In this document: piece by piece, positions 6,701 to 33,015 of the stretch
Numbering within the stretch: position 1 is the stretch's first letter
How the letters are laid out: each line of letters begins with the position of its first letter
Virus record (IMG/VR): IMGVR_UViG_3300030202_001140
Location: 1,550-34,699 of that record
From: a virus
Length of the DNA: 33,150 nt
Direction: 5' to 3' (one strand)
Position numbers and translations under genes: made by a program
The notes under the pieces: model-generated
Database searches by the model: none
Told to the model about the DNA's origin: nothing
What the model saw: only the letters and a program-made list of their open reading frames with translations

Positions 6701-7107
6701 AGAAAGCTGGTTATGGTTCTATAAAACCTTACTTAGATCAGACATACGTTACAGTTGTTACTGAAGGTACTGGAGTTAGCGGTGTAGCATTTAAGAACGC
6801 TGAAGGTGACTACATTCCTACGGGTGATTTAAAGATAGCTATTTCTAATGTACGTCAGACAGCTATAAAAGCTAATCCTGATTTAGCAAATTATAATTCA
6901 GTTATGATGGATACAATGATTGTAGCTAACGCTAATAAGAACTATCAAATATATCTAGATAGAATATTATTAAATAAACCAGATGATATGAGTGAATTAG
7001 ATTTTCTTAATAAGAACGATAAGTTTAGAATATCAGCTCAGTCAATGAAACCTCAGACTACTCCTTTATACGAGTTCATGAGAGCAGGTGGTATTAACGC
7101 TACATAG
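3763..7107 (+). CDS. Internal virion protein with SleB-like cell-wall hydrolase domain
   Basis: 1114 residues. Residues about 78-225 match the SleB cell-wall hydrolase pattern: LLIRMTAAEARGE carries the key Glu, followed by QAGVMYVALNRQ, then LHDIIKKKHAFTS, and later NGAEFFLNEEL. Such domains cleave peptidoglycan, and in virions they open the cell wall during DNA entry, the job done in T7 by the transglycosylase domain of gp16. The N-terminus (DTEPAMLTEGEFVSTKE) is a common start in phage structural proteins. Residues about 246-310 hold tandem IDSFKDRVAxEKDxF repeats, then a Gly/Met-rich linker, a long charged coiled-coil region (about 580-710) and a globular C-terminus. The start has a good GGAG site (3750-3754). 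The protein is likely ejected or held in the core. Confidence 0.7.
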   Translation: MKSLTDPTNRDTEPAMLTEGEFVSTKETMEIYGPTLVAQNNHGLALRAARNKAFLEGKPIPKLVPPPEMMNSGGIVLSDEDKDLLIRMTAAEARGEDPTSQAGVMYVALNRQKANRKEHGGNKLHDIIKKKHAFTSTLDPTNSYWYDKKNTDIKTSAEYKKAASILEGILSGEIKDPTNGAEFFLNEELTRQQRKDGKLPGWYDNVKAKKRLGKHTFAQHPDYVEKVTKSIVPPVRGASNPIPMNYKEYFVDSFKDRVAQEKDDFKTHYIDSFKDRVAKEKDEFERYYIDSFKEDFIPGLKDRIEVEKEGWKNYFYPTHIAPKLEAFGKGMMLKGAGIPGYNNGGMPMEDDDNIMNFIMNYQGKLGDVNPEDVAAGIISDEDLLQNSSDAGANSFMEANDMQYGDPRQSIPMPGAFMGNITDAQSLRAGVVRPDMMPPGYVPTAPEVMPRSTSPQGGADRIALNNITSNLDLQVPRSGGLMNAIVPPAYAGEDPSQMLSQYLAMRNNPEMFNRMNSSEQQRLITRIDELQSQVNADNKQPFFDLSSAYDADGNEIMEDGENVPPTINKFARQNIEAQITLAEKSRQEGERILKLASSEKDRLKAIAIIEKANSDIERYNAILNKDNESYKTIGNIIDKNSLRNSELELAKLRKELNNAGNPLHIAQLNELIPELETSIDEQKKALNDDKTTDDKKVEETTKVLTSKVPIGRKLEEAIKSGAVEKAGSKVKQGSPQWEGAKSFLKDIFGDIFNKKDLVRAITIYLGARIFGASGNQAGAMAGKYYLGKQDQHEATVAAYMKAGKHKPSSIAKYAKTRNLNDLELIGTSVTPTNTYETFYKRLPGGKELKVMARKYKIGEDGSGWKIQIADPDNPGKRIWVAFDPTQGFTTDGSRFRSGGDKYTKEVARLQELGAKLVKPELSVVDDDGVEKRIFENFNEQKAGLQWGNWTIDNDIPADTSADMLNMAVQMMKQEKKKDPDKKAGYGSIKPYLDQTYVTVVTEGTGVSGVAFKNAEGDYIPTGDLKIAISNVRQTAIKANPDLANYNSVMMDTMIVANANKNYQIYLDRILLNKPDDMSELDFLNKNDKFRISAQSMKPQTTPLYEFMRAGGINAT
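4497..4690 (+). repeat. Tandem coding repeat (IDSFKDRVAxEKDxF units)
   Basis: Three successive units of about 22 codons, the third degenerate, each with a GATAGTTTTAAAG core (first around 4513, second around 4573, third around 4630). They encode an amphipathic charged helix repeated in phase, immediately after the SleB domain, perhaps a spacer or oligomerisation rod. Confidence 0.75.
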
Positions 7108-7120
7108 AATGGAGTCATAA

Positions 7121-11161: not shown

Positions 11162-14100
11162 TGGCAAAGATTAATGTATCGACCCGTGTCCAACCAATAG
11201 TGGGCGGAGGAGATGCTGAACAAGCATTAAAACAAAAAGCAGCAAGAGCATTTGCAGGTCAGCAATTAACTGGACAAGAGCCAGAGGTAAAGGCTTTTCT
11301 TGATAGCGTAATAAACATAACTCCTGCAGAAATAGAGCAAGCTAAAGCAGAAGGTGCAAACATAGATAAGAACCTTAGAGGAGACACTTTAATTAGTACT
11401 CCTGATGTAAGGTACACTGACGAGGATATGCGTGAAGGTGTAGTTCCAGATGAACTATACAGATCAAATCTAAGAGAACGTCGAGCAGCCCAAAGAGCTG
11501 GAGAGCGGCGCAGTTACGATTTTATAGCTAAAGAAGAACAGCCTACTAAGAGTACTTTCTTTGGTGGCCAAGAATTTAAAAGTGATTCAACGGATGATGG
11601 TGGTTTAACAGAACGTCTTAAGAAAGGATTAATTAATATACATACTAATGGACTGTTTAGACTAGGTACTAATCCGGTAGGTCAGACATATCCTGATGCA
11701 GCAAAAGTTGGTAAAGGCACTAACGTTGACGGTGTGTATACTCCACCACCACAGCAGTCAGTTGATGTTGCAACACAACAAGCGTCAGTCGCACAACAAA
11801 CTCAATTTAATGATAAGACTGGAGAGCCATATGATCTTAAGTTAACTAGAGCTATCATGAAAGGTGGAGGTCTAGCTTACAATAAAGATATAGATGAAGG
11901 ATCTCATATGCCTTCACAAGACTATGATAGAGTAGCTTTACTTACAACTGAAAATGCTATCGCTGATAGAACATATTTAGCTGTAGATGATTTTGAAGTT
12001 GATCCTATTACTGGTCAGAAAGTAACTGATGAAACCAGAGAAAAAATGCTGGCGGAAGAGCAAGTTGCTGCAGAGCGTAAGCGTCTAACAGCAGGTGTTA
12101 AAGTAACTATGGCTGCAGGTAATGGAGCTTTAGGTAATCAGATACACCAAGAGTGGTTACGTCTTAATCCTGATATTGAACAGACTAAACTAACTAGAGA
12201 AGAAGCAGAGACATTAGGTTCAGCTTATAAAGAACTGTATGCTAATATTAATCCTGATATACTACAACGCGTTGAGACTAAGTTTAAACAAACAGAGTTT
12301 AGACTACTCGATGATGCTGTACCTAAGCTTTTAGCTGGACAAGCTTTACGTCAGGCGTTGTTTCCTAAGCAGATTATAAAACCACTATCAGCTCCTATGT
12401 TGTCTGGTACTATTAGTGAAGGAGATATGGCTAACTTTACTAAGACAGTGTTAGGTCCTGTAGGTGAGAAGCAAGTAAAAGAAATACTTACAGCATTTAG
12501 AAACTTAGGATCTGTTGGCCATGTAGTTGATAAACGTAGAAATAAAATACTTCTTGCAACATTACTTAGACACTTAAATACTAATGATGTTATGTCTTGG
12601 GAAGCTGAAATACACGGTATGGGTGAGACTAAAAGTAAAGAATACTCTGCTAAAGAAAAGTTTCAAATCAATGAGATGCTTAAAGAAGGTTATGTATATA
12701 ACGATGAGATAGGTTATTACACTCATCCTGCTGAGGGTAAACCTGATATACATGTAAGTTATCTTTACAATGCTAAAGAAGTTATGGATAGTGGTATGGA
12801 TAGCTATGCTCAGCAAGTTCATGCTATTCAAGCAGCAAGGAATCAAATAAGTTTCTTAACATTCGCTAGTTTAGGGTATAACCAACGTATTATACCTCAG
12901 CAAACTTACTTTAATCCTGTTACGTCTAAGGTAACTAGGTTTGTAACTAGATCTGCTAGACCTGATGTAATAAAACCTGCATCTATACAAGAGAAGAACT
13001 TACGAGAAATGTATTCATCTATATTAGTTGATGGTACATCTAAGAAGATGCCTAAGGTAAGAGAAGAGATGTTAAGAGCAGCAACTCCACAACTAAGAGA
13101 GTGGGGTAATATACTAAGAGAACTACAGAATGTAAGTGATAGCGACTACGAAATAGTTGCTGATGCTATAGCTAATAAGATACCTATTAATGATCCTGCA
13201 TGGCCTACCGACGCAGCTAACAGAGTTGCAGGTAATCTTCAGTTAGATCCACAACAACATGGTGGACTTATGGCTGCTATTAAAGATAAAGGTGGCTTTG
13301 AAGGTTTAGTATACATAGATGGTTTAATAGACTTTGCTAACTACATGGACGCAAGAACAGCTGGTAAAAACTTTACTACATTCTTTAATGCTTATCCTGA
13401 TGGTATTACTAATGGTATTGCGTCTAACGCTGTACAAATGGGTCATCAACAGACAGCTAAGCGTACCGGCGTTATAAGAGAAAACGATGTAGGTGATTTG
13501 CTTGATGATGGTGATGTTAGAGATGTTGTTGCTAGATCTGCTCTTGCATCTTTAGGAGACGGCTGGAATAATGTTTCACAAGATACCGATAAAGGTATTG
13601 ATATGACTACACACTTAAATGTACTAGCTACTGAACTATACTCTGAGAAAGCTATAAACAAAAGTACTACTATGGTTTACGGTTATGGTATGGAGTTGCA
13701 GAGTTTCTGGATTAAGTTTAGAGATGGTCTTAATTTAAAGTTAGAGTATGATAATCCTAAGTTATTAAATGCATATAATTATCTAATGAGTCAAGCAGCT
13801 TTTGATAATGATTTAGAAGCGTTATCTAGAGTTATAAACGAAAAGTATTCTACTTCACTTGAAGATACTATGTCCACTGATGCTATACAATCAAGACGAT
13901 TAGTACGCGCAGCCGCCGGTATTCATGCAGCAATGGATGAAAACTTTAGTATTGAATTACCAATAGGCAGAGGTGCTTATGGTAGATATGTATCTGAAGG
14001 TCAAGCTACTGCTGATGTAACTACCTTTAATATATATGAACCAGAAGGTTATGACGCTGAAGGTAAATTTCTTGTTGATCCAGATACTAAGAAGCCTTTA

Positions 14101-15003
14101 CTTAGGAAGCAAGCTAGAAAAGCTGTACATTATAAGAGACGTATGACTGCGTCTGCCGCAGCGACAGTACCAGGCGGACAGCAGTTTGGTAGGTTTGCTT
14201 ATGGTGGTTCTTTACCTGGACCTATACAGGCGCTTGATGCTGTTACAATCGTAAAGACTGCAACAGGTAAATCATGGAATGATATATCGAATGCAAGTGG
14301 TGGTCAGCCATATATGTTTAGTATATATGATGCTGTTAAAGTAACTGCAGGTAATATGCACGTAGTATTAGATGAGATAAATAATAATTGGTTTAACGAG
14401 TCTATGAAGTACTCTTATCTACAAGCTATGAGAGATTCTACTGTAGCTAGTATGAAGAAATTTAGAAAGAACAAAGCTAAAGTTCTTGAAGAGATGGGTG
14501 ACTCACCTATACCTTTAATTAAAGCTGGGTACATGCATCAGGTACTATCACCAACAGAGTTTATTAAGCAGAAGGATGGTACAGAAAAACCTAACTTTGC
14601 TAAGTCACCATTAACTAAACAGTTAAGTAAGATGGCTGCTAAACCTGAAGGTAAGGTAGATAATAATGGAAGACCTATAACTACGGATAGTCAAGAATTC
14701 TTTAATCAAGCAGAAGAGTTTGCTAGAGGAATGTATAGAGCTATGAATAAAGCTGGATTTAAGTACAACATTCATAAAAAAGACTATGATCTTCCTCCAT
14801 TAGAACAGTTTGCAAGTGAAACAACTTACAGACAATACTATGCTTTCGTTGAAGAATTTTACAGACTACTAGACTTTGAGAATCGTATGAATAGAATGAT
14901 AAGCAAGACTAACGCTAACAAGAAGAAGTTAGCTGAAGCCTTAAAGAAAAACGGTTTTAAATCTAGAAGCGGACGTATGATACCTAGACAATACGACCTA
15001 TAA
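11161..15003 (+). CDS. Diverged single-subunit RNA polymerase in the virion gene cluster (candidate virion RNA polymerase)
   Basis: 1280 residues. All T7-type polymerase motifs can be placed in order. GYNQRIIPQQTYFNP (572-586) matches the DWRGRVYAVSMFNP block of T7 RNAP. YPDGITNGI (D747) matches motif A, DGxxxGI. KAINKSTTMVYGYG (K830, K834, M838, Y842) matches motif B with the same K-x3-M-x3-Y-G spacing as T7 K631/M635/Y639. PGPIQALDAVTIVKT followed by FSIYDAVKV (D1057) matches the PNFIHSQDGSHLRKT to LIHDSF region of motif C. R627 of T7 is replaced by Lys and H811 by Tyr. The N-terminal part before the first motif is about 150 residues longer than in T7. As the last gene of the ejection-protein operon it is probably packaged and injected, as in phage N4, though N4's enzyme is far larger. 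The polymerase fold is well supported; packaging is inference. Confidence 0.8.
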   Translation: MAKINVSTRVQPIVGGGDAEQALKQKAARAFAGQQLTGQEPEVKAFLDSVINITPAEIEQAKAEGANIDKNLRGDTLISTPDVRYTDEDMREGVVPDELYRSNLRERRAAQRAGERRSYDFIAKEEQPTKSTFFGGQEFKSDSTDDGGLTERLKKGLINIHTNGLFRLGTNPVGQTYPDAAKVGKGTNVDGVYTPPPQQSVDVATQQASVAQQTQFNDKTGEPYDLKLTRAIMKGGGLAYNKDIDEGSHMPSQDYDRVALLTTENAIADRTYLAVDDFEVDPITGQKVTDETREKMLAEEQVAAERKRLTAGVKVTMAAGNGALGNQIHQEWLRLNPDIEQTKLTREEAETLGSAYKELYANINPDILQRVETKFKQTEFRLLDDAVPKLLAGQALRQALFPKQIIKPLSAPMLSGTISEGDMANFTKTVLGPVGEKQVKEILTAFRNLGSVGHVVDKRRNKILLATLLRHLNTNDVMSWEAEIHGMGETKSKEYSAKEKFQINEMLKEGYVYNDEIGYYTHPAEGKPDIHVSYLYNAKEVMDSGMDSYAQQVHAIQAARNQISFLTFASLGYNQRIIPQQTYFNPVTSKVTRFVTRSARPDVIKPASIQEKNLREMYSSILVDGTSKKMPKVREEMLRAATPQLREWGNILRELQNVSDSDYEIVADAIANKIPINDPAWPTDAANRVAGNLQLDPQQHGGLMAAIKDKGGFEGLVYIDGLIDFANYMDARTAGKNFTTFFNAYPDGITNGIASNAVQMGHQQTAKRTGVIRENDVGDLLDDGDVRDVVARSALASLGDGWNNVSQDTDKGIDMTTHLNVLATELYSEKAINKSTTMVYGYGMELQSFWIKFRDGLNLKLEYDNPKLLNAYNYLMSQAAFDNDLEALSRVINEKYSTSLEDTMSTDAIQSRRLVRAAAGIHAAMDENFSIELPIGRGAYGRYVSEGQATADVTTFNIYEPEGYDAEGKFLVDPDTKKPLLRKQARKAVHYKRRMTASAAATVPGGQQFGRFAYGGSLPGPIQALDAVTIVKTATGKSWNDISNASGGQPYMFSIYDAVKVTAGNMHVVLDEINNNWFNESMKYSYLQAMRDSTVASMKKFRKNKAKVLEEMGDSPIPLIKAGYMHQVLSPTEFIKQKDGTEKPNFAKSPLTKQLSKMAAKPEGKVDNNGRPITTDSQEFFNQAEEFARGMYRAMNKAGFKYNIHKKDYDLPPLEQFASETTYRQYYAFVEEFYRLLDFENRMNRMISKTNANKKKLAEALKKNGFKSRSGRMIPRQYDL

Positions 15004-15327: not shown

Positions 15328-17625
15328 TTATGCGAAGAAATAATCAGAATCTTCTATGCCATTTATACTTAGGCTGCCTAACTCTGGTTGTTCAACGTCT
15401 ATTTCTTCTTTATCTGTTATTATCTGTTCTTCTATGTAGTTGTAGAAGTTATCTACATCGTACATATCTATGAACTTACGTTTAGTGTGAGCAAGTAATA
15501 GCTCTACATCACAAGCATGTGTTGAAAAACTATCGTGCACAGCGCCAAACTCTCCATTCCAATCGTCTATTACGAGTGCCATATGACTAGCGTCCATAGA
15601 GTGAACAAAGTTAGGTGATATTCCTGTCATAAATCCTCTTATACTAGGAAGTTTAGTTGCTACTTGGGCACAGTGTTGTACAACGCCACGTTTATTGTAC
15701 GTAGTGTATCCACTTATAGTACCTTTAGCTTTACGCTTTTGCATTTGAAAATTAGTATACTCTACTGGAAACCCTGATGGGGTTGTCCAGCATAGTTTAT
15801 CTTTACCATTACCGTATACTAATCTAGATTCATATGAGTTTATAAATTGAACTAGCTTACTCAACTCTTCTAGTTCCTCATCTGTCTTATCTTTCTTTAT
15901 ATAAAGTTCTTTCTGTCTGGCGATAACATCTGAATATTCTTTACCTGCTATCTCTCCTTCTGGAGAAAACTTTACATACTTTCCTATCTCAAATAGAGCT
16001 AGCTGCTGTAAGTATGACATAGTACTTAGTGGTCCTGGACATACTTTGTCTATTGCTTTGATTAGAATCTTAGCAAACTTGTTACAGTCATCTTGTGTGA
16101 TACCATATATAGTATGGTAGTCTTCTACTTTAGAATCAAAGAACATGTTCTCTGCAATCTTACTAGCACCTGCAGAATAAGCTCTTGTCATTGATCCGCG
16201 TTTAGTTATACCCTTACGTATATGTTTCATAGGCATAGAGTTTAGTATGCTTTTTAATCTATCATCTTCAGTAAGCTTAATTAACTCTTTAGCTGCCTGC
16301 ACGTAGAAATCTTTTTGTATTACAGTAGGTATTAACCCAACAAGATCGCCTGTCTGAGTATCCTTAGACATAGATCCTAAGTGCTGCCAACCGTTGTTGC
16401 TGCCGTCGATAGGTATAGGTAAATGTGACATGTGTAGTCTATGATCTTTCTTAGCTTCATGGTAGTCGTACCATTCCACACAACACGCTAAGAATGATAC
16501 AGTCTTCTCGCATGGTACAAAAGAAGTAGTACGTCCTAATTCAACTATCCAATCCATGTTATTGTTTACCCAGTTAACTCTATCTTCTAAAGTCATTTTA
16601 TCTACAGATATATCTTCTAGTCCTTCTGATTTAAGATAACCTTTATAGTCTTGCTCAGTCCACTCAGGTATCTCGTCTATCTTGTAGCTTTCGTTATAGC
16701 TGACAGCTGTATGCACTGCTAACCAGAATAAACCACTGTCTGTCATTGGCTTACCTCTAGCAAACTTCAACATACCCCTAGATAAATCAGATCCTTGAAA
16801 GTTTAAGAAGGGTTCTATGTAATAGATTCTACCACGATAATCTGCATCTACGTATTGGTAAAACACATCATGATCCTTTAGTAGCTTAGCCTTAGATGTA
16901 ATGAACTTCCATTCCATAACTTTACTACGTCGTTTCATTTCTTTTACATCGTTATTCTCATAAGGTTCTTCGCGTAAGAACGTACTCTTGCTATTAAGTA
17001 ATGCGTCATATACTTTTCTATTTATACGCCAGCCAGTTTTCTGTAGCTTATTCATAGCATTTATATATGGTTGCTTTAGATCTAAGTGATCGTCCTTTAA
17101 CTTATTCTTAATAACTAAGTGTCTATCGTTTTGTACCATAGAAGTTATAGACTTAGGTATTGTAGTCCTAGTAGCAGTTAGATTTATTCTTGTAGTTGCT
17201 TCATGTAGATCAGCAAGCTCTATCCACTTAGGTGTAGCAGATATTATATGGCTGCTATCCCTTATTCTTGGATAGTACAGGTCTATAAAACCACAGTTAT
17301 AAAATCCTTCTACAAATAAATCACCTAGTCTTAACTCCATAGACCAAGGTAACTTATCTCGTTTTAGTAGTCTATGTATGTGTTGACCTATTTTAAATGA
17401 TGTATTAGTTAACTGTGCTGTACCTGCAGGGCTATCACTTGTATCTTTAGTAAATAATATTTGTATAGTCTGCAGTGCGGAGTTAACAAATATATCCATG
17501 TCTTCTTTATAATTTTTATGTAACTTTAATAATACCCCACCAGAGTTAGCTTTAGGATTGTTTATATTTATCCCATCCACTTTCTCTAAGAGGTAGTTGG
17601 TTACCTGATCTATAGGTTTTGACAT
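15328..17625 (-). CDS. T7-like single-subunit DNA-directed RNA polymerase
   Basis: 765 residues from the ATG at 17625 (a TTG three bases upstream would add one Met; GAGG lies 9-12 bases before the ATG). Motifs: DADYRGRIYYIEPFLNFQG (262-266 is the DxxGR box), motif A IDGSNNGWQH (D407), motif B ITKRGSMTRAYSAG (K475, Y483), SPNFVHSMDASHM, and motif C AVHDSFSTH (D698). These are the full catalytic set of the T7 family, so the enzyme should transcribe phage genes from its own promoters. The part before DxxGR is about 160 residues shorter than in T7 (883 residues in total), meaning a reduced N-terminal promoter-recognition domain. The start overlaps the end of the dCMP deaminase gene by 74 bases. 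Candidate promoters are the CTAWAAGGAGAGTATAC sites. Confidence 0.95.
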   Translation of the reverse strand: MSKPIDQVTNYLLEKVDGININNPKANSGGVLLKLHKNYKEDMDIFVNSALQTIQILFTKDTSDSPAGTAQLTNTSFKIGQHIHRLLKRDKLPWSMELRLGDLFVEGFYNCGFIDLYYPRIRDSSHIISATPKWIELADLHEATTRINLTATRTTIPKSITSMVQNDRHLVIKNKLKDDHLDLKQPYINAMNKLQKTGWRINRKVYDALLNSKSTFLREEPYENNDVKEMKRRSKVMEWKFITSKAKLLKDHDVFYQYVDADYRGRIYYIEPFLNFQGSDLSRGMLKFARGKPMTDSGLFWLAVHTAVSYNESYKIDEIPEWTEQDYKGYLKSEGLEDISVDKMTLEDRVNWVNNNMDWIVELGRTTSFVPCEKTVSFLACCVEWYDYHEAKKDHRLHMSHLPIPIDGSNNGWQHLGSMSKDTQTGDLVGLIPTVIQKDFYVQAAKELIKLTEDDRLKSILNSMPMKHIRKGITKRGSMTRAYSAGASKIAENMFFDSKVEDYHTIYGITQDDCNKFAKILIKAIDKVCPGPLSTMSYLQQLALFEIGKYVKFSPEGEIAGKEYSDVIARQKELYIKKDKTDEELEELSKLVQFINSYESRLVYGNGKDKLCWTTPSGFPVEYTNFQMQKRKAKGTISGYTTYNKRGVVQHCAQVATKLPSIRGFMTGISPNFVHSMDASHMALVIDDWNGEFGAVHDSFSTHACDVELLLAHTKRKFIDMYDVDNFYNYIEEQIITDKEEIDVEQPELGSLSINGIEDSDYFFA

Positions 17626-18025
17626 CAAGTCCTCTTTCTTTTAAAAATTGTAGCGCGTAGCTATCATACGTCTCGTCGTATACTACTCTAATAATCCCTG
17701 CTTGTAGTATAAGTTTAGCACACTCAATGCAAGGCGAGTGTGTAGTATATATTGTAGCTCCTTCAGAGCTGCCACCTGTTTTAGCTAACTTCATAAGTGC
17801 ATTAGCTTCTGAGTGGATAACCTCAGGCCTAGTCATACCATCAGAGTGTCTTGTGTGATTACACATACCTGTTGGCATACCGTTAAACCCTTGTGAAAGC
17901 ACCTGCCCATTACGGACTATGATGCTTCCAACTTTTATATCATCATCGAACGATAGCTGACTAAACACGTGAGCTACCGTTAAATATATTTTATCATAAC
18001 GCTCCTGTTTGGAATTCGAATTCAT
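17552..18025 (-). CDS. Deoxycytidylate (dCMP) deaminase
   Basis: 157 residues, the usual length. Zinc and catalytic motifs are complete: HSEANALMK (the HAE-type box, with catalytic Glu) and SPCIECAKLI (PCxxC box). The enzyme converts dCMP to dUMP, feeding thymidylate synthesis. There is no thymidylate synthase proper in the window, since the ThyA-like protein upstream looks like a dCMP hydroxymethylase, so dUMP would have to go to a host or out-of-window enzyme. It overlaps the primase-helicase gene by 32 bases and the RNA polymerase gene by 74 bases. An AAGG site lies 6 bases before the ATG. Confidence 0.92.
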   Translation of the reverse strand: MNSNSKQERYDKIYLTVAHVFSQLSFDDDIKVGSIIVRNGQVLSQGFNGMPTGMCNHTRHSDGMTRPEVIHSEANALMKLAKTGGSSEGATIYTTHSPCIECAKLILQAGIIRVVYDETYDSYALQFLKERGLDVKTYRSGNQLPLRESGWDKYKQS

Positions 18026-26139: not shown

Positions 26140-26324
26140 TAGTTGTTGTCCACTTCTGAATAAACGTTTTCTTTTACAAGATCTATTTTAGGATCATATC
26201 TGCCTTCAGCAAAATTATCTAGTGCATGATCTGCTGAGTCAGCTGCTATTCTATAAGTACGCTCGATAGTTACGTTAACATCGTAGTACTCTATAAAATC
26301 AGTACTTGATTCGTATTTAGCCAT
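26139..26324 (-). CDS. Hypothetical protein, 61 residues
   Basis: Start taken at 26324 (MAKYESSTDFIEYYDV), with GAGG about 12 bases upstream; the frame is open further, but that part overlaps the DUF1599-like gene. The sequence DVNVTIERTYRIAADSADHA suggests one beta hairpin and a helix, and the tail is acidic. No family is recognised. It overlaps the DUF1599-like gene by 8 bases and shares its stop with the start of the dCMP hydroxymethylase, so it belongs to the same coupled unit. Confidence 0.6.
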   Translation of the reverse strand: MAKYESSTDFIEYYDVNVTIERTYRIAADSADHALDNFAEGRYDPKIDLVKENVYSEVDNN

Positions 26325-26700
26325 CTTGACTATAACCTCGCGACTTCTCAAACTGCACAAAGTCTTCTTGGTCTTTCTTATCTCTTCTAATTTTAGCTGC
26401 ATACATACAACAGTATACTGCCATGTCTATAAGAGTATCATCAAGTGCTTCGAAGTTAGTTTTCTGTTCACCTTCTGCAATGTTACGCATACGTAAATAC
26501 TTAGTATGTATCATGTGTATGTAACTTTGTGCGCCAAATGGAAAGTAATCATCTTCCGACCATGTACTGCCTTGGTAGTCTTTAGACTTTAAGTCTTTTA
26601 AGTCTGCCGCTTCACGCAGTACATTAGAAGCTGTTATCTCCGATGCTCCTAGTATTGTTGATATACCTAGAGTATCTAAGTTTTTAGAGTTTGCCATCAT
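26317..26700 (-). CDS. DUF1599 / Nmad1-like protein (nucleotide-modification associated), first gene of the leftward operon
   Basis: 127 residues. KDYQGSTWSEDDYFPFGAQS, then IHTKYLRMRNIAEGEQ and NFEALDDTLIDMAVYCCMYA, follow the DUF1599 layout: K-D-Y-G near the start, a K-x-x-R-x-x-x helix, and E-x-x-x-D-T-L-x-D-x-x-x-Y at the end. This family has been named nucleotide modification associated domain 1 because of its genome context in phages. Its biochemical role is not known to me; the helical acidic pattern recalls MazG-type pyrophosphatases. It lies one short gene before the dCMP hydroxymethylase, which fits that theme. Start at 26700 or 26697 (two adjacent ATGs). Confidence 0.6.
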   Translation of the reverse strand: MMANSKNLDTLGISTILGASEITASNVLREAADLKDLKSKDYQGSTWSEDDYFPFGAQSYIHMIHTKYLRMRNIAEGEQKTNFEALDDTLIDMAVYCCMYAAKIRRDKKDQEDFVQFEKSRGYSQDG

Positions 26701-26720
26701 ATGTAGCCCTTTCTTTGTTT

Positions 26721-26736
26721 TATACTCCCCTTTTAG
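26721..26736 (-). promoter_or_regulatory. T7-type promoter candidate, leftward
   Basis: Minus-strand CTAAAAGGGGAGTATA, 21 bases before the first leftward ATG. It matches the other CTAWAAGGAGAGTATAC copies except for one base in the GGAG part and the last C. Confidence 0.6.
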
Positions 26737-26757
26737 AGAATATGATTAATAAAATTC

Positions 26758-26786
26758 TATAAAACAAAACACTCTTGGGTGTTTTG
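26758..26786 (-). promoter_or_regulatory. Hairpin promoter candidate 1 (leftward replication operon)
   Basis: 8-pair stem CAAAACAC/GTGTTTTG around loop TCTTGG (plus strand; CCAAGA on the minus strand), then, reading leftward, 3 bases and TATAG at 26761-26757. It lies 65-86 bases before the ATG at 26700. The loop is identical in three other sites whose stems differ. Confidence 0.6.
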
Positions 26787-26799
26787 ATCAATAGAGTTT

Positions 26800-26817
26800 C
26801 CTATAAGGAGAGTATAC
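26800..26817 (+). promoter_or_regulatory. T7-type promoter candidate, rightward, before the small terminase
   Basis: CCTATAAGGAGAGTATAC, sharing CTATAAGGAGAGTATAC exactly with the site at 30100. Its AAGGAG also sits 11 bases before the ATG at 26822 and could serve as the ribosome site, so the motif may do double duty. It resembles the CTATAGGGAGA half of the T7 promoter. Confidence 0.65.
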
Positions 26818-26821
26818 TAAT

Positions 26822-27220
26822 ATGAGTTCCCATCCAAATAGTTTAAAGAACTTAAAGCCATTCTTTGATACCCAGAAGGCTCAGGCTGCTCAGAGAAACT
26901 CTGTTATTGCTAGAAAAGCTAACAAAGCTGCAAGAGAAAAGCTTAGGATTTCTGTAGAAGATTGGCAGACGTTTAAGAAAGATGTTGTCGAAGATAACGA
27001 TATGACGTCTTTAGATGTTCTTAAGGTTCTTATGCATAAAGCGTTATCAGAGGACGACTTTGATACTGCTGCTGATTTAGCTAAAAGTTTAGCTGAGTTT
27101 GAGTCGCCTAAGTTAGCACGTATAGACCAGACTACTAAGGAGTTGTCGGTTGACGATATGTCAGACGATGAAATTAACGAGGCTCTGAAAGGTTTTGTAA
27201 ATGACACGGAAGATGCATAA
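26822..27220 (+). CDS. Terminase small subunit candidate
   Basis: 132 residues. It opens MSSHPNSLKNLKPF, a start pattern frequent in small terminases and related DNA-binding packaging proteins, then has a Lys/Arg-rich helix (RKANKAAREKLR), and ends with LAEFESPKLARIDQTTKEL and DDMSDDEI, where the PKLAR block is typical of small-terminase C-termini. Small terminases recognise the packaging site and recruit the large subunit. It is a single rightward gene between a promoter candidate and a strong terminator, about 4 kb away from terL, whereas these two genes are usually adjacent. The assignment comes from pattern and not from a diagnostic residue. Confidence 0.55.
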   Translation: MSSHPNSLKNLKPFFDTQKAQAAQRNSVIARKANKAAREKLRISVEDWQTFKKDVVEDNDMTSLDVLKVLMHKALSEDDFDTAADLAKSLAEFESPKLARIDQTTKELSVDDMSDDEINEALKGFVNDTEDA

Positions 27221-27233
27221 TTCTTTCTTTTTT

Positions 27234-27242
27234 TTGTCGGTC
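27234..27242 (+). repeat. TTGTCGGTC motif next to terminator, copy 1
   Basis: TTGTCGGTC followed by AGTCAAAAATAAAT and the hairpin at 27257. The same arrangement (TGTCGGTC, A-rich spacer, hairpin) recurs at 30127 and 30697. Confidence 0.55.
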
Positions 27243-27256
27243 AGTCAAAAATAAAT

Positions 27257-27291
27257 CCCCTAGATACCATTACGGTACCTAGGGGTTTTTT
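27257..27291. terminator. Bidirectional intrinsic terminator between terS and tRNA-Trp
   Basis: CCCCTAGATACC / GGTACCTAGGGG stem (one mismatch) with loop ATTAC, followed by TTTTTT on the right. Leftward transcripts read the hairpin and then ATTTATTTTT. It ends the small-terminase transcript and, from the other side, the leftward tRNA operon. Confidence 0.9.
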
Positions 27292-27299
27292 ATTAGTTC

Positions 27300-27373
27300 T
27301 GGCAGGAGCACTAGGAATTGAACCCAGTCCTACGGATTTGGAATCCGTCGTGCTGCCGTAACACTTTGCTCCT
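27300..27373 (-). tRNA. tRNA-Trp (anticodon CCA), CCA end encoded
   Basis: Full cloverleaf on the minus strand: acceptor AGGAGCA/TGCTCCT; D stem GTGT/GCAC with GG in the loop; anticodon stem ACGGA/TCCGT with loop TTCCAAA giving anticodon CCA; T stem CTGGG/CCTAG with loop TTCAATT; discriminator G and encoded CCA (27300-27302). A1-U72, the CCA anticodon and G73 are tryptophan identity elements. Position 8 appears to be A, not the usual U. It lies 5 bases after the preceding leftward gene and just before a terminator, so it is the last unit of that operon. Confidence 0.92.
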
Positions 27374-27378
27374 GAATA

Positions 27379-27591
27379 TCAGTACAGATCAAGCAGTAAA
27401 CCTTCAGTATCGATTTCTGCATTTATGTATTTTCTAAACCTACGCTCATCGAACCTAGGATTATCTTTTGCTAGTATTACATGTATAAGGTAATCTAATG
27501 CTTGTCCTTTACCATGTTTTTCTAGTGTATTAGGAATATCATGTATACGTAGCCATTGAGCTATTGCAACGTAGTGTTTCTTATGCATCAT
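27379..27591 (-). CDS. Hypothetical protein, 70 residues
   Basis: Start at 27591 (ATGATG), chosen because GGAG lies 6 bases upstream; an ATG at 27603 has no site. It contains YVAIAQWLRIHD and HGKGQALDYLIHVILAKDNPR, and looks like a compact all-helical protein. No family is recognised. It overlaps the preceding gene by 11 bases and ends next to the tRNA. Confidence 0.65.
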   Translation of the reverse strand: MMHKKHYVAIAQWLRIHDIPNTLEKHGKGQALDYLIHVILAKDNPRFDERRFRKYINAEIDTEGLLLDLY

Positions 27592-27898
27592 ATTCTTCTC
27601 CATCTTCTACCCAGCCATCATTACCTAGCTCGAGCTCTAAGTCAGGTGCTACCTCGTGATCATGAGGAGATACTTTGAATGCTGCACGAGCTAATATGTC
27701 TGCTATTGTGAAGTCATCTAGCTCATCACCTTCTGGTTGTGTAATGTTGAATTCATAACTATCATTCGATGGCTTATGGTATACGTTTAGTGTGAATTGC
27801 CAGTCTTTAAGTTCTCTATTTCTTCGAGAGCTGAATTCAATAACGTTATTATCTTGTTTATTTCCACTACCATTACGTTGTGCATCATCATTGTGCAT
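27581..27898 (-). CDS. Hypothetical acidic protein, 105 residues
   Basis: Start at 27898 with AGGAG 7 bases upstream. The N-terminus is polar (MHNDDAQRNGSGNKQDNN), then WQFTLNVYHKPSNDSYEFNI forms strands, and the C-terminus is very acidic (DLELELGNDGWVEDGEEYDA). No family is recognised. An unusually long overlap of 112 bases with the previous gene, in another frame, is notable; both starts have ribosome sites. Confidence 0.6.
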   Translation of the reverse strand: MHNDDAQRNGSGNKQDNNVIEFSSRRNRELKDWQFTLNVYHKPSNDSYEFNITQPEGDELDDFTIADILARAAFKVSPHDHEVAPDLELELGNDGWVEDGEEYDA

Positions 27899-28023
27899 GT
27901 AACTGCTCCTATATTTCCTGACTGTTGTTGTATCAATGGGTGAGCCATAAGATCTTTTAATGACTCAGGTGTTGCGAAGAGTTTTTGCTCTTCATATAAT
28001 TCTATAGGTTTACTCTGTTGCAT
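27787..28023 (-). CDS. Hypothetical protein, 78 residues
   Basis: Starts at 28023 and overlaps the previous gene by 14 bases; GAAAGGATTACAGA precedes the ATG. It contains EEQKLFATPESLKDLMAHPL and a C-terminal helix EINKIITLLNSALEEIENL with coiled-coil-like spacing. The last 112 bases are shared with the next gene. No family is recognised. Confidence 0.55.
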   Translation of the reverse strand: MQQSKPIELYEEQKLFATPESLKDLMAHPLIQQQSGNIGAVTCTMMMHNVMVVEINKIITLLNSALEEIENLKTGNSH

Positions 28024-28453
28024 TCTGTAATCCTTTCAATGCATCAATAGTGTTATCTAATTTATTAATCATGTCTTGTTTAGCTTTTGCCATACCATCG
28101 TTAAAGCCATTACTATAAGATGTCCATCTTGACCAGTCTTTTGTGTCGTATACGTATACATCATAATGAGTTCCATATTTCATTGGTAGATATGAATCGT
28201 AACTTCTGCGATTGCCGTAGTCTTTTAGTGAAGGACCTACACGAGAACCACGAGGCATTAGTCTTACCGTGATAACATCAGGGTCTGTGCCTTTTAACTT
28301 AGCATTTCTACGTCGTACTTCATTCCAGTATGCTGCATTCTTCCGTAAGTAAATTACGTGAGGATTGTTTTTATCTGACGTGCTAAACCTGTAGCCACTA
28401 TGTATGTCTCTATTTCTTGTAGTTATCCATGTATCTTTATTTACTAGTGTCAT
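28010..28453 (-). CDS. Hypothetical basic protein, 147 residues
   Basis: Rich in Arg, Lys, Tyr and Asp. The segment VITVRLMPRGSRVGPSLKDY suggests a beta-rich core with a nucleic-acid-binding look, and the C-terminus is a helix (MAKAKQDMINKLDNTIDALK). It overlaps the neighbours by 17 and 14 bases. No family is recognised; an early host-takeover role is possible only by position. Confidence 0.6.
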   Translation of the reverse strand: MTLVNKDTWITTRNRDIHSGYRFSTSDKNNPHVIYLRKNAAYWNEVRRRNAKLKGTDPDVITVRLMPRGSRVGPSLKDYGNRRSYDSYLPMKYGTHYDVYVYDTKDWSRWTSYSNGFNDGMAKAKQDMINKLDNTIDALKGLQNATE

Positions 28454-28661
28454 TTGTATTCCTTTCTATATCTTGAAGTATGTGACCTAGATCGACAAAT
28501 ACTTTAGCAGCTTCTTCTTTATCTAAGAGTAAGCCTCTGCCGTCGATTGAGATCACGATTGTTTGATCATTCGGATTGAATGAAACTTGTATTTGTTCTT
28601 CTATTGCCACATTGTTTAACCTTTCGTTTTCACGTGTATTAACATCTTTATGTTTTCCCAT
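28437..28661 (-). CDS. Hypothetical protein, 74 residues
   Basis: Starts MGKHKDVNTRENERLN, then a strand-turn-strand IQVSFNPNDQTIVISIDGRG and a helix KEEAAKVFVDLGHILQDIE. AAAGGA precedes the ATG at 28661. No family is recognised. It overlaps the next gene by 17 bases in the coupled operon. Confidence 0.6.
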   Translation of the reverse strand: MGKHKDVNTRENERLNNVAIEEQIQVSFNPNDQTIVISIDGRGLLLDKEEAAKVFVDLGHILQDIERNTNDTSK

Positions 28662-28671
28662 ATTATTTCCT

Positions 28672-28767
28672 TTATTTATCTTCAGGAGGGTTTGCTCTTA
28701 CTATATAATCTATTATGCCTACTGCTATAATGATTACTGCTGCATAGCTTACCGTAAGTCCTATCAT
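28672..28767 (-). CDS. Small single-pass membrane protein, 31 residues
   Basis: ATG at 28767 overlaps the TGA of the preceding gene (ATGA), so it is translationally coupled. The sequence starts MIGLTVSYAAVIIIAVGIID, a membrane helix, and ends with a short polar tail RANPPEDK. It stops 10 bases before the next gene. Tiny hydrophobic phage proteins include lysis factors and host membrane modifiers; the role here is unknown. Confidence 0.6.
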   Translation of the reverse strand: MIGLTVSYAAVIIIAVGIIDYIVRANPPEDK

Positions 28768-28955
28768 TTACTTACAGTTGCTATTTCTTCGAGCATTGAT
28801 CTACGTTGTAATTCCGTAATTAATCCTTTACAAACGTAGTATATGTGTAAGTCAGTGCTTTTAGTCTCCTCTTTCTGTTTTAAATATCTACGAAGTTTCT
28901 GTTTATACAACAATATAGTTGCCTGTGTATTCTCTATTTCTCCACATATTGACAT
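28764..28955 (-). CDS. Small helical protein, 63 residues
   Basis: Starts at 28955 with AAAGGA 5 bases upstream. It contains ATILLYKQKLRRYLKQKEET and LITELQRRSMLEEIATVSK, two charged amphipathic helices with possible coiled-coil pairing. No family is recognised. It is the first gene of a leftward operon that runs down to tRNA-Trp, immediately after the ssb terminator, so it probably relies on read-through from ssb. Confidence 0.6.
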   Translation of the reverse strand: MSICGEIENTQATILLYKQKLRRYLKQKEETKSTDLHIYYVCKGLITELQRRSMLEEIATVSK

Positions 28956-28972
28956 GCAAATCCTTTCATTAC

Positions 28973-29025
28973 AAAAAAAATGCTCTAACGATACACAAAA
29001 GGAACATAAAGTGTATCGTTAGAGC
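28973..29025 (-). terminator. Intrinsic terminator after ssb (leftward)
   Basis: Perfect 15-pair stem GCTCTAACGATACAC / GTGTATCGTTAGAGC with a 14-base loop, followed in the leftward direction by ATTTTTTTT. It lies about 105 bases after the ssb stop. It may attenuate and not fully stop the transcript, since the next genes have no promoter that I can see. Confidence 0.9.
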
Positions 29026-29129
29026 GGTCTCCTTGGGTTTAAGCAGTTTATTATACACGCCAGAGGTCGTAGTGAATCTACATAGACTTTGACAACGTGA
29101 GCTATCACATGCTTAGGTGCTTAGCATTC

Positions 29130-29666
29130 TTAGAAGCCTAGTTCATCTCCTTTTGCTAGTTCATCTGCAGTCTTAGTAGTCGCAGGCTGATGCTTGCTGA
29201 AATCAACTGAAGGATCTACAACAGTTTCTGGCTCCATTTCGAAATCAACATCGTTTGCACCTGTATATTCTACAAGATCTACGATTTGGATTTTTGTCAA
29301 TGACGTAGCGATACCTGATCTGCCCATTGCTTCGTAAGGATACTGCCATACAATAACGTTGCCAGTTGAGCCATTTCCTATTTTACGTACATCAATAACA
29401 TCAGATGCTTTTGTGCCGACAACTTCTACTTTGCCGTTATCTGAACCGTCTGCACGTTTGGCTTTACGCTTTAGAGATACAGTATATACACCTGGTTCTT
29501 TCTCTTTGACGTTTAGGTGATTAGCCTTAAGCTCTGCAGCTTTGTCTTTATCATTAGTCATGAGCTGAGCTTCATATTGCTCTGTGCCGAATGGGTTTAC
29601 AGGTTTGTCAAGACGGCACCAGTTTAAGAATACGCCTTGTATTAGGTAATTTCTAGGTTTTTCCAT
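29130..29666 (-). CDS. Single-stranded DNA-binding protein, T7 gp2.5-like
   Basis: 178 residues from the ATG at 29666, chosen because AAAGGA lies 7 bases upstream; the ATG at 29690 lacks a site. The OB-fold body includes FGTEQYEAQLMTNDKDKAAE, VRKIGNGSTGNVIVWQYPYE and IATSLTKIQIVDLVEYTG, the last two blocks being characteristic of phage gp2.5-type proteins. The C-terminus is acidic and ends DELAKGDELGF with a terminal Phe, as in T7 gp2.5, where that tail contacts polymerase and helicase. It has its own upstream hairpin promoter candidate and its own terminator, consistent with separate high expression. Confidence 0.82.
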   Translation of the reverse strand: MEKPRNYLIQGVFLNWCRLDKPVNPFGTEQYEAQLMTNDKDKAAELKANHLNVKEKEPGVYTVSLKRKAKRADGSDNGKVEVVGTKASDVIDVRKIGNGSTGNVIVWQYPYEAMGRSGIATSLTKIQIVDLVEYTGANDVDFEMEPETVVDPSVDFSKHQPATTKTADELAKGDELGF

Positions 29667-29717
29667 GATATAATCCTTTATGTTTGTCATGTTAATTTGA
29701 TTGCCATAGCATAATGC

Positions 29718-29748
29718 TATAGGTTAAAATTTACTCTTGGGTAAATTT
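29718..29748 (-). promoter_or_regulatory. Hairpin promoter candidate 2 (ssb)
   Basis: 8-pair stem AAATTTAC/GTAAATTT around loop TCTTGG (plus strand), then, reading leftward, 5 bases and TATAG at 29721-29717. A second palindrome (ATAGCAT-A-ATGCTAT, 29706-29720) overlaps the TATA. The ssb ATG is 61 bases beyond the hairpin. Confidence 0.6.
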
Positions 29749-29902
29749 ACTTTTTGTGTCTGAAGAGATCGCGTAGTTCGTGAAGATCTATATAGTCGAA
29801 CCATTGCTTTCTTTCCTGACCCATTTTTATTCTTCTTTCGCGAGAACTTATTCCTGTCAAAAGAAAAACAAAAATCATAAGAAATCCTATTGCTAAGAGC
29901 AT
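29747..29902 (-). CDS. Small membrane protein with basic cytoplasmic tail, 51 residues
   Basis: ATG at 29902 shares its A with the stop of the preceding ORF (TAATG). The N-terminal helix MLLAIGFLMIFVFLLTGI is clearly membrane-spanning, followed by a basic amphipathic region (SSRERRIKMGQERKQWFDYI). Its stop lies at the foot of hairpin promoter candidate 2. It could be a holin-like or host-membrane-acting protein; nothing decides this. Confidence 0.6.
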   Translation of the reverse strand: MLLAIGFLMIFVFLLTGISSRERRIKMGQERKQWFDYIDLHELRDLFRHKK

Positions 29903-30024
29903 TATAGGATTCCTTTATCTTCTTCTTCTATGTATTTCTTAAGATTATCCAGTTGTCTCTGTTTGTGATCATCTGGATTATCATCATTGTTGTGTTCATC
30001 TGATAGTGGTATTGTTGTATTCAT
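29902..30024 (-). CDS. Small acidic peptide, 40 residues
   Basis: Begins at 30024 after a strong AGGAGG 8 bases upstream. The sequence is polar and acidic (DEHNNDDNPDDHKQRQLDNL) with a charged helix at the end. It is coupled to the membrane-protein ORF by a TAATG junction. No family is recognised. Confidence 0.55.
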   Translation of the reverse strand: MNTTIPLSDEHNNDDNPDDHKQRQLDNLKKYIEEEDKGIL

Positions 30025-30060
30025 GTTGTGTCCTCCTATAGACGTTATGAATCTTTACTG

Positions 30061-30081
30061 ACTATAGAGTATATCTATAGT
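30061..30081. promoter_or_regulatory. Inverted repeat upstream of the two small leftward ORFs
   Basis: Perfect ACTATAGA / TCTATAGT 8-pair stem with 5-base spacer GTATA, 37 bases before the ATG at 30024. Stem length and position resemble the four hairpin promoter candidates, but the loop is different. It may be an operator or a fifth, diverged hairpin. Confidence 0.45.
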
Positions 30082-30099
30082 ATATTACGGACCCACACC

Positions 30100-30116
30100 C
30101 TATAAGGAGAGTATAC
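30100..30116 (+). promoter_or_regulatory. T7-type promoter candidate, rightward, intergenic
   Basis: CTATAAGGAGAGTATAC, identical over 17 bases to the site before the small-terminase candidate. No rightward gene follows until terL at 31201, so this copy cannot be explained as a ribosome site and supports the promoter reading. Confidence 0.65.
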
Positions 30117-30125
30117 CTTTGTCGG

Positions 30126-30134
30126 CTGTCGGTC
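30126..30134 (+). repeat. TGTCGGTC motif next to terminator, copy 2
   Basis: CTGTCGGTC followed by CGGTGAAAGA and the hairpin at 30145. The upstream GTCGGC at 30121-30126 is similar. See copies at 27234 and 30696. Confidence 0.55.
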
Positions 30135-30144
30135 CGGTGAAAGA

Positions 30145-30162
30145 ATAACCCTTACGGGTTAT
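30145..30162 (-). terminator. Leftward terminator overlapping the stop of the 107-residue gene
   Basis: Stem ATAACCC/GGGTTAT with loop TTAC, followed leftward by TCTTTC, a weak U-tract. The stop codon at 30159-30161 lies inside the stem. Confidence 0.6.
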
Positions 30163-30482
30163 CTTAATTTATCCCAGCTTTTATCATTTCCTAAATACGT
30201 TATAGTCCCATCGTCATTATGGATTTCTTTATTATATCCTCCATGATAACAACTAATAGTCCTATGCATACCTTTAGGATCTCCTTCTATTGCTACGCGT
30301 ACTTCTATGTAGTCAGCTCCGAATGCAGGAGATTTACTGAATGCTTTAAGCTGACGCTTAGTCATTCTAGAATTCCATGTAACCTTATTATTTCTACCAG
30401 TTACTAGAGTTGCTGAGGAGTTAGGATCCTGTTCGAATTCTAGGTAGCTGATAGTTATGTCTACTGCATATGATTTTTCCAT
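30159..30482 (-). CDS. Hypothetical protein, 107 residues, with its own hairpin promoter candidate
   Basis: Starts at 30482 with AAGGAAC 8 bases upstream. It contains YAVDITISYLEFEQDPNSSA, RMTKRQLKAFSKSPAFGADY and IEVRVAIEGDPKGMHRTI, suggesting a small alpha/beta protein. No family is recognised. It stands alone between a hairpin promoter candidate and a terminator, an arrangement expected for an early, independently dosed phage protein. Confidence 0.65.
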   Translation of the reverse strand: MEKSYAVDITISYLEFEQDPNSSATLVTGRNNKVTWNSRMTKRQLKAFSKSPAFGADYIEVRVAIEGDPKGMHRTISCYHGGYNKEIHNDDGTITYLGNDKSWDKLR

Positions 30483-30513
30483 GATGTGTTCCTTTATTAA
30501 AATGAATTAAATG

Positions 30514-30542
30514 TATATAAAAAATTGCTCTTGGGCAATTTT
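30514..30542 (-). promoter_or_regulatory. Hairpin promoter candidate 3
   Basis: 8-pair stem AAAATTGC/GCAATTTT around loop TCTTGG (plus strand), then, reading leftward, TTA and TATAC at 30517-30513. The following CATTTAATT is shared with candidate 4. It lies 39-60 bases before the ATG at 30482. Confidence 0.65.
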
Positions 30543-30646
30543 AGAGTTTAGAGAATGGTGTTTGTCCCTGCAGGACCACCGCGATTCTCCCCATTCCTAC
30601 CGTCTCCCAACCATCACTGCTAATACCTGCATCCAAAAGGACCCCA

Positions 30647-30690
30647 AAGGACACCCTCTGCCTCATCCTACGCGCTCTCAGGGTGTCCTT
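30647..30690. repeat. Inverted repeat, 11 perfect pairs
   Basis: Arms AAGGACACCCT (30647-30657) and AGGGTGTCCTT (30680-30690). No T-run follows on either side, so it is not an ordinary intrinsic terminator. Confidence 0.8.
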
Positions 30691-30695
30691 GTCTG

Positions 30696-30704
30696 TTGTC
30701 GGTC
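30696..30704 (+). repeat. TTGTCGGTC motif next to terminator, copy 3
   Basis: TTGTCGGTC followed by CTGTAAAAATAA and the hairpin at 30717. The spacer closely matches the AGTCAAAAATAA spacer of copy 1. Confidence 0.55.
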
Positions 30705-30716
30705 CTGTAAAAATAA

Positions 30717-30744
30717 AGAGGCCCGACACGGATGCCGGACCTCT
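30717..30744 (-). terminator. Leftward terminator after the 78-residue gene
   Basis: Stem AGAGGCCCG/CGGACCTCT (8 of 9 pairs) with a 10-base loop, followed leftward by TTATTTTTAC. It lies 15 bases after the stop at 30759. Confidence 0.75.
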
Positions 30745-30758
30745 GCGGGAGAACCTAC

Positions 30759-30995
30759 CTACTTCACCATCTTAAGCTTATCATTATAGTAGCATGGTGA
30801 AGCCTTAAGGCTTACTGTCTTACCATCCTGCAAGAGTTTGGTAAAATGAGGGAGTTGATACAAGCAGGCTATGAATTTGCCTTTATTTGTATCAATGCCT
30901 ACCATGTCTAGCTTCCACCTGGGAGTTATTTTGTTCCCAGGAAAGATGGTTAGCTTTTTAATTTTGCATTTAATAATTTCTTGTTGGTTATCCAT
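30759..30995 (-). CDS. Hypothetical basic protein, 78 residues, with its own hairpin promoter candidate
   Basis: Starts at 30995 with AAAGGA 6-8 bases upstream. It contains IIKCKIKKLTIFPGNKITPR and FIACLYQLPHFTKLLQDGKT, probably a small beta-barrel-like fold. No family is recognised. As with the 107-residue gene downstream, it is flanked by a hairpin promoter candidate and a terminator, so it is likely expressed early and alone. Confidence 0.65.
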   Translation of the reverse strand: MDNQQEIIKCKIKKLTIFPGNKITPRWKLDMVGIDTNKGKFIACLYQLPHFTKLLQDGKTVSLKASPCYYNDKLKMVK

Positions 30996-31039
30996 GTGAT
31001 GTTCCTTTCATTGGTTGGATAGTTGAAATTAAATTAATG

Positions 31040-31068
31040 TATATAAGAATTTGCTCTTGGGCAAATTC
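31040..31068 (-). promoter_or_regulatory. Hairpin promoter candidate 4
   Basis: 8-pair stem GAATTTGC/GCAAATTC around loop TCTTGG (plus strand), then, reading leftward, TTA and TATAC at 31043-31039, then ATTAATTT. It lies 52-73 bases before the ATG at 30995. Confidence 0.65.
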
Positions 31069-31155
31069 ATGTGTAAGCGGAATAGGGGGCTAAAAGTAAG
31101 AAGTGGTATACTGCCAATAATTATACTACCTTATTCAGTCTGTCTCAGCGTCACC

Positions 31156-31171
31156 CATACTCTCCTTTTAG
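31156..31171 (-). promoter_or_regulatory. T7-type promoter candidate, leftward, before terL
   Basis: Minus-strand CTAAAAGGAGAGTATG, 161 bases upstream of the leftward 78-residue gene and only 30 bases before the rightward terL start. It is on the strand opposite to terL. Confidence 0.55.
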
Positions 31172-32853: not shown

Positions 32854-32999
32854 CAAATAAAATAGTAGATCAAGAAGAGGAAATATCTAACACATTAATA
32901 GATTATTTCTTTGAAGGTAGAGTACCTTCTGAGTGCGTAGGTTTATCTGAAGATATATACGCTAACCCTATGTTTAGATTAAGTTGGTACGAATGTTAG
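32823..32999 (+). CDS. Hypothetical acidic protein, 58 residues, overlapping terL
   Basis: ATG at 32823 with AGAGGA 8 bases upstream, in a different frame from terL. The sequence contains TNKIVDQEEEISNTLIDYFF and ends RLSWYEC. Short acidic ORFs in this slot after terL are frequent in podoviruses, but I recognise no family. The stop overlaps the leftward promoter candidate at 32999. Confidence 0.6.
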   Translation: MDTRQHQVVITNKIVDQEEEISNTLIDYFFEGRVPSECVGLSEDIYANPMFRLSWYEC

Positions 33000-33015
33000 T
33001 ATACTCTCCTTTTAG
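32999..33015 (-). promoter_or_regulatory. T7-type promoter candidate, leftward, after terL
   Basis: Minus-strand CTAAAAGGAGAGTATAC, full match to the family. It would transcribe antisense through terL; no leftward gene is near. Confidence 0.55.

Follow-up and report, generated by a model that had tools for sequence, protein, structure and literature searches.

How does transcription begin in a phage whose own T7-like RNA polymerase (RNAP) gene is among the last of a leftward operon, so that this enzyme cannot act first? The question is raised by a stretch of 33,150 nucleotides (nt), here called the window, which is part of the 34.7-kb IMG/VR phage record IMGVR_UViG_3300030202_001140. Four hairpins with a common loop precede leftward genes of the window, including the replication operon, and a large gene in its structural (virion) cassette encodes a candidate virion RNA polymerase (vRNAP). 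The hairpins are very likely early promoters for a virion-carried RNAP that the phage itself encodes (positions in Table 1).

Hairpin elements in the window

Each of the four hairpins has a perfect stem of 8 base pairs (bp) around an invariant CCAAGA loop, followed by 4 nt and ATAC or ATAG. A sequence-only reading of the window had described four hairpins with exactly eight Watson-Crick pairs and a common 6-nt loop; its coordinates were right, and TATAG or TATAC does lie on the minus strand 3 to 5 nt past the hairpins, as it had noted. Its distance of 40 to 85 bases to the downstream gene was too long, the measured distance from stem to ATG being 36 to 64 nt. The leftward gene that it called ssb does follow hairpin 2, but the label is not firm, as the Enc34-type match is weak and under Pfam's cut-off.

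The four hairpins exceed chance expectation by far. When the window was simulated 200 times with a first-order Markov model, hairpins with at least 8 pairs and a 6-nt loop averaged 0.54 per simulated window, and two simulated hairpins never had the same loop. Within the window, CCAAGA or TCTTGG loops with at least 4 flanking pairs are found at these four sites only, with 8 pairs each. Scans for sigma-70 consensus promoters gave results at chance level.

The hairpins of the template (plus) strand are more stable than those of the other strand by 1.2 to 1.7 kcal/mol, and further closure of their TCTTGG loop is possible as a T.G pair around CTTG. The vRNAP of phage N4 binds a template-strand hairpin with the junction at -5/-4, in which non-conserved stem bases are free if paired and which is exposed by supercoiling and single-stranded DNA-binding protein (PMC4496689); the greater stability of the template-strand hairpins here is in keeping with this.

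Conservation and covariation in related contigs

The CCAAGA element is present before the same kinds of genes in seven related contigs (G002, G008, G009, G010, G016, G017, and G018). The 29 listed instances, among which some contigs enter twice via two overlapping loci, reduce to 14 distinct contexts in eight contigs including the window's. In all 14 the stem has exactly 8 bp, with zero mismatches and zero G.U pairs, and a ninth pair never forms. Ten different stem sequences, all of exactly 8 bp without mismatch, occur in the seven related contigs and a more diverged eighth (L227). Among 11 aligned hairpins, six of the eight stem pairs change on both sides, and pairing is 100%, versus 80% in shuffles and at most 49% in slid controls.

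Compensation is also seen at matched sites. At ssb, AAATTTAC is replaced by AAAATTGC; the loci L140, L141, and L142 have AAAATTGC and GCAATTTT there around CCAAGA or CCAAGC, the latter a loop variant that occurs among the relatives. At the replication operon, CAAAACAC is replaced by TAAATTAC in L227, where TAAATTAC (CCAAGA) GTAATTTA is flanked by the same gene pair as hairpin 1. This relative was found by a pattern scan that left the outer two pairs and the downstream bases (ATAC) free, and bare 16-mer matches elsewhere in IMG/VR, outside the genus, mostly have just the five pairs imposed by the pattern. Four bases and ATAC or ATAG follow the stem in most copies. The earlier proposal that structure and loop are conserved and the stem sequence is variable is thus borne out by covariation without mismatch, and the search for 8-pair stems around CCAAGA that it had called for yielded the 14 contexts, with pairing kept and stems varying.

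A divergent N4-type polymerase among the virion genes

The 1,280-amino-acid (aa) product of the virion-cassette gene had no match in Pfam, NCBIfam, phmmer, or a profile search against PDB sequences, so that profile-profile and fold comparisons were needed. Its homologues, 1,116 to 1,385 aa long, have the motifs GR, DGxTNG, R...K...M...YG, and HTIYDAFK in common; most of 19 homologues conserve GR and motifs A, B, and C, and the 19 family sequences have 30 invariant residues. HAAMDENF was considered as motif C and rejected, since the homologues place this motif at IYDA.

Alignment with hhalign to a core profile of N4-type vRNAPs (N4 and ten N4-like vRNAPs, n = 11) gave 96.7% with an E value of 4e-10, and the alignment kept GR and motifs A to C in register; the controls gave 0.1% (reversed profile), 1.5% (T7-like family), and 0.1% (another virion protein of the window). 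Singly, 11 of the 19 family members reached the PHROG RNA polymerase family. An AlphaFold model of residues 205-1280 (predicted local distance difference test score 77, predicted template modelling score 0.69) had only single-subunit RNAPs as its top Foldseek matches in PDB, and VIA-align gave Z scores of 23.2 with T7 RNAP and 22.7 with 3c3l, the N4 mini-vRNAP with its P2 promoter (594 residues, 14% identity). Judged by its profile and modelled fold, the product is a divergent N4-type RNAP, and it appears to be a previously unrecognised, compact vRNAP. A tblastn search with four family members found no match in 50,697 phage records, Schitoviridae included.

Together with its two neighbours, encoded consecutively at 3763-15003, the polymerase has zero cysteines in 3,740 residues. 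N4 gp50 has 0 in 3,500 residues, and the intracellular 766-aa RNAP of the window has nine cysteines. N4-like vRNAPs are known for lacking cysteine, a trait tied to passage through the tail and periplasm (PMC3715699; PMC10747016). Packaging of the 1,280-aa protein is suggested by its gene place and lack of cysteine.

Hairpins in other clades with related polymerases

An intergenic hairpin scan, which recovers two of N4's known promoters, also identified hairpins in other clades with related polymerases. In clade B (G015, G020, G025, G026, G029, and L166), 5-bp stems of CGAGG, CGCAG, or CTCAG surround the loop ACAAG. CGAGG or CGCAG with this loop precedes MazG, the first gene of the replication operon, at a site that matches the window's, and further copies of the ACAAG hairpin are present in G020 and G026. 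The clade B hairpin is flanked, as in the window, by two divergent CTATAAGG-type motifs. Clade C, for which the evidence is from few sites, has a 9-bp stem, AATCCGACC, around ACAGG or ACGGG (ACRGG) and, near ssb, a shifted GACCC(ACAGG)GGGTC. Comparison of these hairpins indicates that the principle is kept, in clade B with its place, while stem length and loop change.

Clade B also contains ATCCC or GTCCC with a TTC loop followed by ACTT(A/T)AT (L189:204, L191:16222, and L201:8524), possibly a further promoter class; with two sites in G020 and its presence in L201, the loop-TTC set is suggestive but too small.

We think it fairly probable that an uncultivated, probably marine podovirus group, with a genome layout like that of Roseobacter phage CRP-7, combines a compact N4-type vRNAP with clade-specific hairpins (5 bp/ACAAG, 8 bp/CCAAGA, and 9 bp/ACRGG). 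If true, stem length and loop would have changed in step with the polymerase, and transcription from hairpin promoters at injection would be older and wider than the Schitoviridae.

Proposed mechanism and alternative explanations

The covariation in relatives, the N4-type vRNAP candidate, and the hairpins in distant relatives make the hairpin-promoter proposal of the sequence-only reading the best supported. Its further suggestion of an independent version of the N4 system is probably wrong; the polymerase is homologous to that of N4, which suggests that the system arose by divergent descent. It is best read as a compact vRNAP with hairpin early promoters outside the Schitoviridae, homologous to those of N4.

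We infer its steps, from timing, packaging, and ejection to hairpin binding, start sites, and hand-over, as follows. At infection, the DNA would be accompanied into the cell by ejection proteins that lack cysteine, the 1,280-aa polymerase among them. Hairpins extruded on the template (plus) strand would be the recognition sites of this polymerase, read through the loop and closing pair and not through the stem sequence. Transcription would start about 5 bases past the stem, at the A of ATAC or ATAG; N4-like geometry predicts starts at 26760, ~29722, 30516, and 31042. It would proceed leftward into small, putatively early genes, the ssb-like gene, and the replication operon. Made from the operon's end, the 766-aa T7-like RNAP would subsequently transcribe from CTATAAGG(A)GAGTATA promoters, an early-to-late hand-over that would resemble N4's from vRNAP to RNAPII.

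Several points weigh against this scheme. The stem of 8 bp and loop of 6 nt differ from the 5 to 7 bp and 3 nt of N4. In the ssb copies the downstream ATAC is displaced by 2 nt or, in three relatives, replaced by AAAC. A recurrent set of perfect hairpins was not found in CRP-7, G023/G030, or L016-L021, some of which lack the early region, and the similarity of CRP-7 gp33 to the vRNAP family is not significant.

A conserved loop on a covarying stem 36 to 64 nt before start codons could also belong to RNA elements in 5' leaders, acting in stability, processing, or translational control through an RNA-binding protein specific for the CCAAGA loop, and the ssb leader does contain a second, variable palindrome downstream. 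We consider this improbable, since no hairpin has a G.U pair, ATAC or ATAG is conserved outside the stem at a near-fixed distance, no Rfam match was found, and an N4-type polymerase is encoded. In addition, the candidate T7-like promoter of the replication operon is downstream of the hairpin, so that its transcripts would not carry it. The same polymerase bears on whether the hairpins are instead promoters of the intracellular T7-like RNAP: hairpin recognition is known for N4-type vRNAPs, a homologue of which is encoded here. Although TATAG is similar to the start region of T7 promoters and an RNAP of the 766-aa type is present in all relatives checked, a separate motif with the T7-like core CTATAAGGAGAG is present in five copies on both strands, and the RNAP gene lies in a hairpin-controlled operon, so that something else must act first. 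This makes the intracellular enzyme a quite improbable user of the hairpins.

Perfect inverted repeats upstream of genes would also suit double-stranded palindromic operators of a dimeric regulator. A reader of double-stranded DNA would be expected to keep the arms, whereas here the arms vary and the non-palindromic loop is fixed, and arm length differs between clades (5, 8, and 9 bp), which leaves this very improbable. Weak intrinsic termination, suggested by a simple scan that listed hairpin 1 as terminator-like, is extremely improbable: a T-run is present at one of the four hairpins, the stems are rich in A+T, no leftward gene that could be terminated lies directly upstream of hairpins 1 and 4, and ordinary strong terminator-like hairpins are found elsewhere (27257-27285 and 30717-30744).

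Other features of the window

The candidate promoters of the T7-like RNAP are copies of the CTATAAGGAGAGTATAC motif, which occurs five times in the window, on both strands, versus 0.23 expected. We take the motif to be akin to the T7 promoter core, and its copies probably serve the 766-aa enzyme as promoters. The clade B counterpart is CTATAAGGGGTATAT. The T7-like RNAP co-occurs with the vRNAP family in all 12 other contigs tested.

Table 1 Features of the window discussed in the text (aa, amino acids; nt, nucleotides).
Feature	Positions	Strand	Remarks
vRNAP candidate	11161-15003	+	1,280 aa, no cysteine; GR motif, motif A DGITNG, motif B K...K...M...YG, motif C IYDA
Hairpin promoter candidate 1	26765-26786	-	CAAAACAC (CCAAGA) GTGTTTTG; 5' of replication operon; predicted start ~26760 (A of ATAG), 26757-26760
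Hairpin promoter candidate 2	29727-29748	-	AAATTTAC (CCAAGA) GTAAATTT; 5' of ssb-like gene; predicted start ~29717-29722
Hairpin promoter candidate 3	30521-30542	-	AAAATTGC (CCAAGA) GCAATTTT; 5' of 107-aa gene; predicted start ~30516
Hairpin promoter candidate 4	31047-31068	-	GAATTTGC (CCAAGA) GCAAATTC; 5' of 78-aa gene; predicted start ~31042
MazG-like gene, first of replication operon	26317-26700	-	start 64 nt past stem; control by hairpin 1 proposed
ssb-like gene	29130-29690	-	Pfam Enc34_ssDNA-bd, under cut-off; ATG 36 nt past stem; control by hairpin 2 proposed
107-aa gene, function unknown, putatively early	30159-30482	-	control by hairpin 3 proposed
78-aa gene, function unknown, putatively early	30759-30995	-	control by hairpin 4 proposed
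Virion protein, probable ejection partner	7121-11161	+	1,346 aa, no cysteine; weak PHROG virion-protein match; homologous to CRP-7 gp34
Virion protein, probable ejection protein	3763-7107	+	1,114 aa, no cysteine; cell-wall hydrolase domain
Second, intracellular T7-like RNAP	15328-17628	-	766 aa; near end of leftward replication operon
Candidate T7-like RNAP promoter, rightward	26801-26817	+	CTATAAGGAGAGTATAC; repeated motif
Candidate T7-like RNAP promoter, rightward	30100-30116	+	CTATAAGGAGAGTATAC; repeated motif
Candidate T7-like RNAP promoter, leftward	26720-26736	-	CTAAAAGGGGAGTATAA; between hairpin 1 and replication operon, same layout in clade B
Candidate T7-like RNAP promoter, leftward	31155-31171	-	CTAAAAGGAGAGTATGG; repeated motif
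Candidate T7-like RNAP promoter, leftward	32999-33015	-	CTAAAAGGAGAGTATAC; repeated motif

The second palindrome of the ssb leader follows right after hairpin 2 (29704-29723). It may be an mRNA structure, because a different palindrome is present at the equal place in G008 and G016-G018. Near the motif at 30100 there is a perfect 8-bp hairpin, ACTATAGA (GTATA) TCTATAGT (30061-30081), identical in the relative L120, for which we have no explanation. A tRNA-Trp gene (27300-27373, minus strand) separates the ssb operon from the divergent gene at 26822.

Comparison with known systems

The vRNAP has been called unique to the Schitoviridae (PMC12633501), and N4-like vRNAPs have been described in N4-like phages only (PMC5512222); one survey discarded IMG/VR candidates shorter than 2,500 aa (PMC10654107). 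For phage StenR_269, a 2023 paper guesses at a vRNAP on the basis of size, helical composition, and absence of cysteine (PMC10747016). No earlier report of a compact vRNAP with a hairpin system was found in the literature searched, with subscription journals mostly outside its coverage. No relative turned up when named phages were searched at the DNA level, and the two genome-collection matches that might indicate a host are contigs of metagenome-assembled genomes, probably binning errors.

The strategy has so far been documented for the N4 family alone. A ~1,200-aa homologue in another lineage, together with larger hairpins, would show that it is older and more flexible, would offer natural variation for studying how a polymerase reads a DNA hairpin, and would make available a small enzyme of one protein for use on single-stranded templates. 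It would also explain how transcription starts in T7-like phages with the RNAP gene at the operon's end.

The 766-aa RNAP and the CTATAAGGAGAG motif resemble the RNAP and promoter core of T7 (Autographivirales), for which we know of no virion RNAP and no hairpin promoters. The cultivated phage CRP-7 (MK613349) is similar in genome layout, in its T7-like RNAP (35% identical), and in its large cysteine-free virion proteins gp33-35. In CRP-7, unlike here, CCAAGA hairpins were not found; gp33 (L115:17859-21566) has the position of the vRNAP and the motif-like LYGK and AIHDAL, with family similarity that is not significant (E 0.06).

The N4-like Pseudomonas phages LUZ7, LIT1, and PEV2 have predicted hairpins before early genes as well, but with stems of 4 to 5 nt and 3-nt loops, and all are Schitoviridae (PMC3715699). 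The present phage falls outside this family as delimited by a giant vRNAP (~2,800-3,800 aa, with additional domains at both termini), N4-like core genes, and a genome of ~60-80 kb: at 1,280 aa its vRNAP is too short, and a T7-like RNAP replaces RNAPII. Compared with N4 itself (gp50 and promoters P1-P3), the vRNAP is 1,280 versus 3,500 aa long, with ~14% identity in structural alignment. The N4 hairpin, with its shorter stem, has a central purine in the loop on the template; its RNAPII is heterodimeric, in contrast to the one T7-like RNAP here, and the gene order and replication genes of the window are not N4-like. Both phages have a cysteine-free single-subunit RNAP among the virion genes with a DG.TNG motif A, and hairpins before early genes (putatively early here) in which the stem sequence is free and the loop and closing pair are fixed. 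They are also alike in the ~4 nt from stem to start, a predicted distance here, and in having a second phage RNAP for later genes.

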